A stretch of DNA of 64,000 bases, taken from Marinoscillum sp. MHG1-6 (GTDB lineage Bacteria > Bacteroidota > Bacteroidia > Cytophagales > Cyclobacteriaceae). The stretch's first letter is position 1. Each line of letters starts with the position of its first letter. The notes below the pieces were generated by a model. That model saw nothing but the letters and a program-made list of their open reading frames with translations. It made no database searches and was not told the origin of the DNA. Where the stretch lies: positions 434,001 to 498,000 of the forward strand of contig NZ_JAMZMI010000004.1 in assembly GCF_024714475.1 (NCBI RefSeq), given 5' to 3'. A program made the position numbers and the translations under genes. Below, in pieces: positions 38,878-40,232 of this stretch.

Positions 38878-39717
38878 TTAATTCAACGCAGTCTTTACCA
38901 CCTCAGATAGCGGCGTTGTAGAATGTCCGATTAGTTCAGAGAGTGTTTTGCCTTCGTCATACAAATCCCCTTTGGATGCACTCACATCCCAACTCGCTAT
39001 AGCATCCGCAAAGCCATCGGGCAATCCAAAGCTCTTAAGTGCCTGGCTGTAGTCTGCTTCTGGAAGGTTTTGATAAGCAATCACCTTTCCGCTCTGTTTG
39101 GAAGTCTCTTCCGCCAACTCTGTTAATGTATACGCTTCGTCGCCGGAGAGCTCGTATGTTTTACCCTCGTGACCGGCACTTGTCAAAACCACAGCTGCAG
39201 CCTCTGCAAAGTCTGCTCTACCGGCCGATGAGATTCTACCATCACCCGCACTACCAATAAGCGCTCCTGCTTCAACAGCACCGGACAATGAACCCGTGTA
39301 ATTCTCCGTGTACCACCCATTTCTCAAAATGGTGAATGAAATACCCGACTCTTTCAGCAAGTTTTCGGTAGTCAGGTGCTCCTGAGCTAAATTAATCGTA
39401 GAGGTATCTGCCCTCAACAGACTGGTATAAACAATCCATTTCACACCGGCCTCCTTAGCAGCGTTGATCACATTCTTGTGCTGTCTTGCACGTTGACCAA
39501 TCTCATTTCCTGAAATCAACAAAAGACTATCTACTCCCACTAAAGCCTCGGCCAATTGATCAGGCTTTTCATAGTCAAAAGCTCTTGCCTCAATTCCATC
39601 CACCTTTTCAGGAGAGCGTACCATCGCCACCAGGCTGGATGCGTCAGTTCTCTTTTTCAATTGCTCTACTACTAAAGTTCCTAGTTGTCCGGTTGCCCCG
39701 GTAATTCCGATTTTCAT
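38878..39717 (-). CDS. qorB: NAD(P)H:quinone oxidoreductase of the QorB/NmrA type
   Basis: A 279-residue NmrA-like SDR enzyme. Its sequence runs parallel to E. coli QorB (YtfG) throughout: ITGATGQLG at the cofactor site, LLLISGNEIGQRA, VKWIVYTSLLRADTS, ILRNGWYTENY and KSFGLPDGFADAI. It reduces quinones or senses the NADPH/NADP ratio in the cytoplasm. The upstream neighbour is an Rrf2 regulator on the same strand, and both genes carry the same palindrome before their starts, so qorB is probably under its control. Expression is closed by a strong terminator. Confidence 0.93.
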   Translation of the reverse strand: MKIGITGATGQLGTLVVEQLKKRTDASSLVAMVRSPEKVDGIEARAFDYEKPDQLAEALVGVDSLLLISGNEIGQRARQHKNVINAAKEAGVKWIVYTSLLRADTSTINLAQEHLTTENLLKESGISFTILRNGWYTENYTGSLSGAVEAGALIGSAGDGRISSAGRADFAEAAAVVLTSAGHEGKTYELSGDEAYTLTELAEETSKQSGKVIAYQNLPEADYSQALKSFGLPDGFADAIASWDVSASKGDLYDEGKTLSELIGHSTTPLSEVVKTALN

Positions 39718-39734: not shown

Positions 39735-39753
39735 TGTAATAATTTTTGTTACA
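39735..39753 (-). promoter_or_regulatory. Putative Rrf2 operator upstream of qorB
   Basis: The palindrome TGTAA-N9-TTACA lies 18 bases before the qorB start, in TGTAATAATTTTTGTTACA. The same arms with the same nine-base spacer occur before the regulator gene (40214-40232), which points to a shared binding site. Confidence 0.7.
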
Positions 39754-39771
39754 TTAATGGTCAAAAAAAAG

Positions 39772-40182
39772 TCAGTGAAACTCTGACACAAAATCTGCCA
39801 GTGTTTTGCCACTTAATTCCCTGACTACCGAGTTATCAATACCCGTAAACAGCACATCCAACTTTTCGTTGATATCCTTGCCAATGGGACATTTCGGATT
39901 GGGTTGGTTATTCTTTTTACCCAAAACATTTGAATTCTTAATGGCCAGATAGATGGCATCCATGGTAATGTCCTCACTGCCAACTGCCAGCGTGAAGCCA
40001 CCTTCCTTACCCTTTCGACTCAAAACCAATCCTGCATCATTTAAAACCCCAAGCTCTTTACGAACAATGACAGGGTGTATGTTAATGCTACCTGCAATCC
40101 AGTCAGAGCTTAACCACTCTCCTTTTGCATCGGCAAGAAGAGTTAATATATGAAGTGCTGTAGCGAATCTTGTATTACTCAT
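39772..40182 (-). CDS. Rrf2-family transcriptional regulator (YwnA-like, no Fe-S cysteines)
   Basis: A 136-residue winged-helix repressor. The N-terminal helix-turn-helix (RFATALHILTLLADAKGEWL, then SSDWIAGSINIHPVIVRKEL) and the wing GLVLSRKGKEGGFTLA match the Rrf2 family. Only one cysteine is present (in NPKCPIG), so the three-cysteine iron-sulfur site of IscR/NsrR is absent. It is more like YwnA or CymR-type members that sense other signals. The adjacent qorB gene and duplicated palindrome suggest it regulates itself and qorB, perhaps in response to quinone or electrophile stress. Confidence 0.92.
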   Translation of the reverse strand: MSNTRFATALHILTLLADAKGEWLSSDWIAGSINIHPVIVRKELGVLNDAGLVLSRKGKEGGFTLAVGSEDITMDAIYLAIKNSNVLGKKNNQPNPKCPIGKDINEKLDVLFTGIDNSVVRELSGKTLADFVSEFH

Positions 40183-40213
40183 AATTGACTCAAAATTACC
40201 TCTTTTTACTTAA

Positions 40214-40232
40214 TGTAATAAAAAATGTTACA
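40214..40232 (-). promoter_or_regulatory. Putative Rrf2 operator upstream of the regulator gene
   Basis: TGTAATAAAAAATGTTACA is a palindrome with arms TGTAA and TTACA and a nine-base spacer, 31 bases before the rrf2 start. It matches the site before qorB at the arms, in spacing and in the AT-rich spacer, consistent with autoregulation. Confidence 0.7.

Follow-up and report, generated by a model that had tools for sequence, protein, structure and literature searches.

A probable SifR-like quinone-stress switch with two operators in a Bacteroidota bacterium

SifR (SPD_1448) of Streptococcus pneumoniae has been shown to sense quinones through a single reactive cysteine, which caps the N-terminal end of helix alpha5; the protein binds TGTAA-N9-TTACA and represses the quinone reductase YwnB, as described in the sections of PMC9218516 drawn on here. 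Replacing this cysteine by serine in itself disturbs DNA binding by SifR. In the Discussion of that paper, the members named for the SifR cluster are Firmicutes and a few Actinobacteria. Among the publications examined on Rrf2 and TGTAA, in the parts considered, only the SifR paper bears on a TGTAA-N9-TTACA operator. The regulator class, the operator and the logic of the unit described below are therefore already known from the SifR precedent. No reports on binding, transcription or quinones for any member of the Bacteroidota, and no publication naming both Rrf2 and qorB, were found in the literature searched.

Several other systems are close. HypR of Staphylococcus aureus has the same operator core but is a two-cysteine hypochlorite sensor (C33 and C99; same sections of PMC9218516). 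YwnA of Bacillus subtilis (1xd7) has a PNPKCP stretch like that of the regulator studied here, and its rrf2-type gene likewise shares an operon with a small reductase gene, ywnB; it differs in that the two regulators are 35% identical and the reductase here is a QorB. In E. coli, the same type of reductase (2zcu) is encoded by qorB, with an HxlR regulator on the divergent gene ytfH, and no TGTAA-N9-TTACA within one mismatch was found in the qorB-ytfH gap. RsrR of Streptomyces venezuelae, an Rrf2 protein, reportedly has an NmrA-family gene as its main target. RsrR is a 2Fe-2S regulator with the ligands E8, H12, C90 and C110 (according to the portion of PMC9218516 that treats it), whereas the regulator described here has one cysteine.

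The locus in Marinoscillum shares with SifR/ywnB the Rrf2 fold, the cysteine at the alpha5 N-cap, the TGTAA-N9-TTACA palindrome and an NAD(P)H quinone reductase as the apparent target. SifR, in contrast, governs a dispersed regulon and does not adjoin ywnB, whereas here the regulator and a QorB form a local pair with two operators, in the Bacteroidota. The principle of the unit is thus known; what is new is the Bacteroidota branch, qorB as a target and the conserved second operator.

The rrf2-qorB pair and its two palindromes

The window (the whole 64-kb stretch of DNA that was analysed) contains an rrf2-type repressor gene (39772..40182, minus strand, 136 aa) and, in tandem on the same strand, qorB (38878..39717, minus strand, 279 aa), an NmrA-like gene of the NAD(P)H:quinone reductase type. 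The rrf2 product matches the Pfam family Rrf2 (PF02082, E 3.8e-26), and its best solved relative by sequence search is B. subtilis YwnA (1xd7, E 1.3e-21). Foldseek returned 1ylf (E 4.5e-9) and 1xd7 (E 5.4e-9) as top matches, with prob 1.00, for a structure model of the monomer built from 16 relatives (mean pLDDT 89.5). The 35% identity to YwnA, taken from the structural alignment, suggests a subcluster separate from the SifR cluster of the sequence network (about 50% identity).

The first-pass annotation had noticed a single cysteine and had argued from it against the Fe-S site of IscR and NsrR, and both readings hold. C98, within QPNPKCP, is the only cysteine of the regulator, whereas three cluster-ligating cysteines are needed (ligand sets in section 4 of PMC9218516), so an Fe-S sensor of the IscR or NsrR kind is excluded. 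In the structure model C98 caps helix alpha5, which begins right after it (residues 99-123), and the residue is invariant in 16 of 16 aligned sequences. The HxxPNPxC motif reads NNQPNPKC, with PNPxC kept and H replaced by N. The P-x-x-x-C wording is absent in nine of 117 loci, eight of them qorB-linked, with the cysteine still retained, and 25 of the 117 regulators have two or three cysteines. As judged by these features, the protein is a one-cysteine Rrf2 regulator of the YwnA/SifR type.

The genome has two Rrf2 genes in total. The other (G000:C24:13705-14082; L007 1495-1920) encodes several cysteines, unlike the C98 regulator. Read from the translations, the genes that follow it are hemerythrin/iron-sulphur-repair-like and cytochrome-like, an arrangement that resembles an NsrR-type unit.

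The qorB product carries the Pfam domains NAD_binding_10 and NmrA and a Gly-rich NAD(P) motif, GATGQLG. Its best solved relative is E. coli YtfG/QorB (2zcu, E 4.5e-100), with residues 3-275 aligned on residues 2-279 of 2zcu. These matches place it in the QorB (YtfG) family of quinone reductases, and quinone reduction is the predicted activity.

One palindrome precedes each gene, as first proposed, and TGTAA-N9-TTACA is present at both places. O1 (40214..40232, minus strand) reads TGTAACATTTTTTATTACA in gene direction and lies 31 bases upstream of rrf2; O2 (39735..39753, minus strand) reads TGTAACAAAAATTATTACA and lies within the 54-base gap between rrf2 and qorB. The first-pass annotation had given identical arms and spacers. 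The TGTAA/TTACA arms and the spacer length are indeed identical, but the spacer sequences differ in four of nine letters (gene direction); likewise, its 31 bases to rrf2 are correct, while the distance to qorB is 17 bases and not 18.

No other exact TGTAA-N9-TTACA occurs in the window, which on average had 0.10 sites, and never two, in 100 dinucleotide shuffles. In the whole genome (4,101,646 bases) the bare pattern occurs at five places, compared with eight for a reversed control pattern, so a lone bare match carries little weight. By rough arithmetic, the chance that two of five genome matches fall within 500 bases of each other is about 0.002. A fuller consensus derived from the relatives, TGTAAYW7RTTACA, finds O1 and O2 and nothing else in the genome at zero mismatches. 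Allowing up to two mismatches gives 15 places, fewer than the 29 of the control, and neither the bare pattern nor the fuller consensus points to a wider regulon in the 4.1-Mb genome. Two of the three remaining bare matches sit within unrelated genes (L001, L003). The third, TGTAATTATATGGTTTACA (L002 1501-1519 = G000:C11:854095-854113), lies 2 bases upstream of a predicted small lipoprotein gene and departs from the fuller consensus; chance and a third target of the regulator are both possible.

Conservation of the sites among relatives

The sites were counted in 102 loci (L008-L011, L020-L037 and L065-L144), of which L065-L144 are the best 80 of 566 relatives from a public genome scan with one recognition-helix peptide pattern. 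O1 is exact in 94 of the 102 loci, O2 in 96 and both in 90 (the best 80 of 566 included), counts that are not independent because those 80 loci are mostly from Chryseobacterium. With near-copies collapsed at 90% identity, 75 of 86 loci have both sites exact, and at 80% identity 47 of 58 do; two pairs among the 102, L020/L085 and L097/L112, are at least 97% alike. Shuffling gives an expectation of 0.11 (O1) and 0.09 (O2) per 100 loci, and no exact site was found elsewhere in 415,734 flanking bases and the rrf2 genes of 100 loci. The first-pass annotation had tied its proposal to conservation of the arms in relatives: both sites are exact in 17 of the 19 rrf2-qorB loci, the present one included, the exceptions being L104, whose contig starts at rrf2, and L136, which has no O2.

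Fifteen loci collected later, all ywnB-linked, bring the total to the 117 used above; two are equal to members of the 102, and several are at least 90% alike to counted ones. O1 is present with at most one mismatch in all 15 (13 exact) and O2 in 14 (seven exact). Within one mismatch, O2 was not found in L035 and L136 of the 102 or in L170 of the 15, and O1 was not found in L010, L011, L037 and L104. L010 and L104 were scored as lacking O1 with no start codon placed; L104 is cut, and L010 does have one-mismatch sites.

The regulator itself has a scattered distribution: 21 of 395 genomes from the class and 36 of 395 from the phylum, own genome included in both cases, have a match at E 1e-20 or better. 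Nine more distant Rrf2 loci (L012-L019 and L038) stand outside the 102; seven served as outgroup, and L017 and L018 entered no analysis. An exact site is present in L012, L014 and L038 and a one-mismatch site in L015, L016 and L019, while the site of L017 lies inside the gene and none was found in L013 or L018. The distant Rrf2 genes of L016 and L019, with one-mismatch operators, stand ahead of genes for QorA-like dehydrogenases (checked with Pfam for L019). Judged by homology and by its sites, the conserved two-site rrf2 unit is a Bacteroidota branch of the SifR-type regulators.

QorB matches at E 1e-40 occur in 25 of 395 genomes of the class, own included. The closest qorB orthologues (L040-L042, 58-65% identity) have no neighbouring rrf2, and no exact operator was found at these loci; the one-mismatch match of L040 lies inside the qorB gene. 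The 22 weaker matches (L043-L064, at most 42% identity) likewise have no relative of this rrf2 in the examined stretches, where no exact site was found; a one-mismatch match occurs in the stretches of six. The operator thus tracks rrf2 and not qorB in this sample. An HxlR gene adjoins qorB in L040 and L041, not in L042. An HxlR neighbour of qorB is also known from E. coli, where qorB diverges from ytfH (HxlR by Pfam), and the sequence supports the earlier proposal that qorB is wired differently in Marinoscillum.

Promoter geometry at O1, the site behind rrf2 and the proposed switch

A sigma-A type -7 box, TAATTTTG (40191..40198, minus strand; consensus TAnnTTTG), lies 15 bases from O1, and the transcript start is predicted near 40186. 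The consensus and its position, -12 to -5, follow the part of PMC9723704 that describes them. No TTG -33 element was found at the usual distance from the -7 box in the O1 of this genome. O1 lies near -50 in 81 loci, and TAnnTTTG follows it in 78 of the 81 (4.6 expected), at a spacing of 12-17 bases in 77 of the 78 and of 13-14 bases in 61; a TTG lies inside O1, 17-22 bases before the box, in 65 of the 78. In 17 other loci O1 lies directly against the start codon. The box TAnnTTTG stops exactly 3 bases upstream of the start in ten of these; it does not end there in the other seven, and in four of the 17 it occurs behind O1 or in the gene. The fixed distance between O1 and the -7 box, together with the mostly internal -33 TTG, points to promoter occlusion as the likely mode of action of O1.

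O2 is conserved despite the lack of a sigma-A -7 box nearby: TAnnTTTG follows it in one of 100 loci (2.0 expected) and precedes it in none (6.1 expected). A T8 tract (39763..39770, minus strand) separates the rrf2 stop codon from O2. T6 or longer is present at this place in 81 of 102 loci, compared with one of 101 after the stop codon of the following gene. By eye, 20 of the 21 remaining loci have an A-T tract instead, with an overlap between its A run and the stop codon. Neither O2 nor the tract is present in L136, and L035 keeps the tract without an O2 within one mismatch. A terminator hairpin before the T tract was considered and rejected. Across 47 non-redundant loci, stem energies are not better than those of synonymously recoded sequences (mean -0.87 vs -0.50; Wilcoxon p 0.56), and the 5-bp stem of the present locus (-3.9 kcal/mol) is equalled by 15% of its synonymous recodings; convincing-looking stems occur in a few loci (own -3.9, L037 -5.7, L141 -4.5). 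We therefore take the A/T tract for a DNA feature, since there is no conserved stem and 20 of the 21 non-T6 loci carry an A-T tract. Helical phasing of O1 and O2 was also discarded: the distances cluster at 445-457 and 473-484 bases, which proves nothing because the length of rrf2 is near constant.

We consider it probable that the pair is a local, SifR-like quinone-stress switch with two operators. The sequence itself shows the sites, their conservation, the -7 box geometry, the reductase family and a lone cysteine where SifR and YwnA have theirs; binding, reaction with quinones and derepression in this organism we infer by analogy with SifR. The reduced monothiol Rrf2 dimer would bind O1, covering the -33 region of the sole recognisable promoter, and also O2 ahead of qorB, keeping its own synthesis and that of QorB low. 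A quinone or similar electrophile would react with C98 at the alpha5 N-cap; the modified dimer would leave the DNA, and rrf2-qorB would be transcribed from the O1 promoter. QorB would then reduce the quinone with NAD(P)H and the switch would reset. O2 would act on readthrough, as a roadblock or through cooperative binding, rather than at a second promoter, a role for which we saw no precedent. The inducer could be another thiol-reactive agent. Several points speak against a quinone switch: the O1 of this genome lacks the TTG of 65 of 78 relatives, N replaces H in HxxPNPxC, nine of 117 loci lack the P-x-x-x-C wording, 25 of 117 regulators have more than one cysteine, and O1 or O2 was not found in the few loci named above.

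A possible but less favoured reading is that O2 is the operator of a qorB-only promoter outside the usual sigma-A type, for which the A/T tract would be the upstream element, so that one repressor would serve two units. O2 lies near the second gene in nearly all loci, and the A/T tract, a run of T6 or more in 81 of 102 loci, lies about 10 bases before it. The ywnB operator of S. pneumoniae serves a gene separate from sifR (relevant part of PMC9218516) and flavobacteria have alternative sigma motifs (in the portion of PMC9723704 used here). This reading has to accommodate the near absence of TAnnTTTG around O2 (after it in 1/100, before it in 0/100), compared with 78/81 after O1, and little room for a promoter in L079, L083, L104, L107 and L111, where O2 ends 9-11 bases upstream of the start. 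Sensing of hypochlorous acid or another oxidant in the manner of HypR, instead of quinones, is unlikely. The operator core is common to HypR (from the part of PMC9218516 noted above) and the HypR NCBIfam model matches the regulator at E 2.8e-12, but the score is 46.8 bits against a cut-off of 180, HypR uses both C33 and C99 where the regulator has a single cysteine, and the neighbour is a gene of the quinone reductase type. We regard it as very improbable that the palindrome is no operator at all but a chance match or a repeat of a structural or terminator kind: the control-like rate of bare genome matches (5 vs 8) and the T8 tract after the rrf2 stop with its -3.9 kcal/mol stem would suit such a reading, but the position of the sites and the promoter geometry are conserved, and in the 47 loci the stems are no stronger than those of synonymous recodings (p 0.56).

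The two-operator quinone switch would extend SifR-type quinone sensing, described for Gram-positive bacteria, to the Bacteroidota, and it supplies an operator and a promoter geometry that can be tested in this phylum.

Exchange of the gene behind O2

The second gene behind O2 is qorB in 19 of the 102 loci, YwnB-like in 81 and of another kind in two (NmrA-like in L011, PNPOx-type in L037). The YwnB-like protein of L020 matches the pneumococcal YwnB structure 4r01 at E 1.3e-34 (4r01 is SpYwnB according to the part of PMC9218516 that lists it). QorB aligns with the L020 protein at the start of the Rossmann fold only (40% over 68 residues), and a YwnB-like query against this genome gave QorB itself as the single match (E 7.1e-6). 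In a midpoint-rooted regulator tree of 63 rows after thinning, in which near-copies cluster the labels, the 14 qorB-linked rows form one side of a branch (95/91). This branch lies within a group of 37 rows (97/94) that holds 23 ywnB-linked rows, and 17 more ywnB rows stand outside it. The topology fits a single replacement of ywnB by qorB. As far as gene content and the tree tell, the slot behind O2 is one that has been refilled, with qorB for one regulator clade and ywnB for most others.

One reductase, QorB, occurs next to regulators of two unrelated families, and regulators of one type precede different reductases. We tentatively raise the idea of a cassette with an exchangeable payload, doubtful as it is, in which rrf2 and O1 are joined to a promoterless O2 slot for quinone-handling genes and O2 serves as a roadblock, so that basal transcription would give the sensor and not the reductase. 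If about a hundred loci have indeed kept O2 as an operator without a promoter, the unit would be a clean system in which to study the purpose of repressor sites within operons.

Some loci carry labels from outside the phylum. The closest relative of the pair among the best 80 of 566, L065 (PBTY01000044.1; Rrf2 71%, QorB 76%), is on a contig labelled Rickettsiales but falls together with Marinoscillum, so the assembly or contig may be mislabelled. An rrf2-ywnB unit with both operators is present in L141 (CP034120.1, Glaciecola), labelled as a gammaproteobacterium, which suggests transfer between phyla. Outside the Bacteroidota, seven plasmid matches were picked from 329 records, too few for a claim: no site was found near rrf2 in two Haloferax and one Treponema, exact sites lie near rrf2 in Niallia and in the archaeon Natronorubrum, and one-mismatch sites in two rhizobia. 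The sites of Natronorubrum, Niallia and the two rhizobia are those at L163 2048-2066, L158, L159 and L160, and the operator site may be much older than the Bacteroidota phylum.
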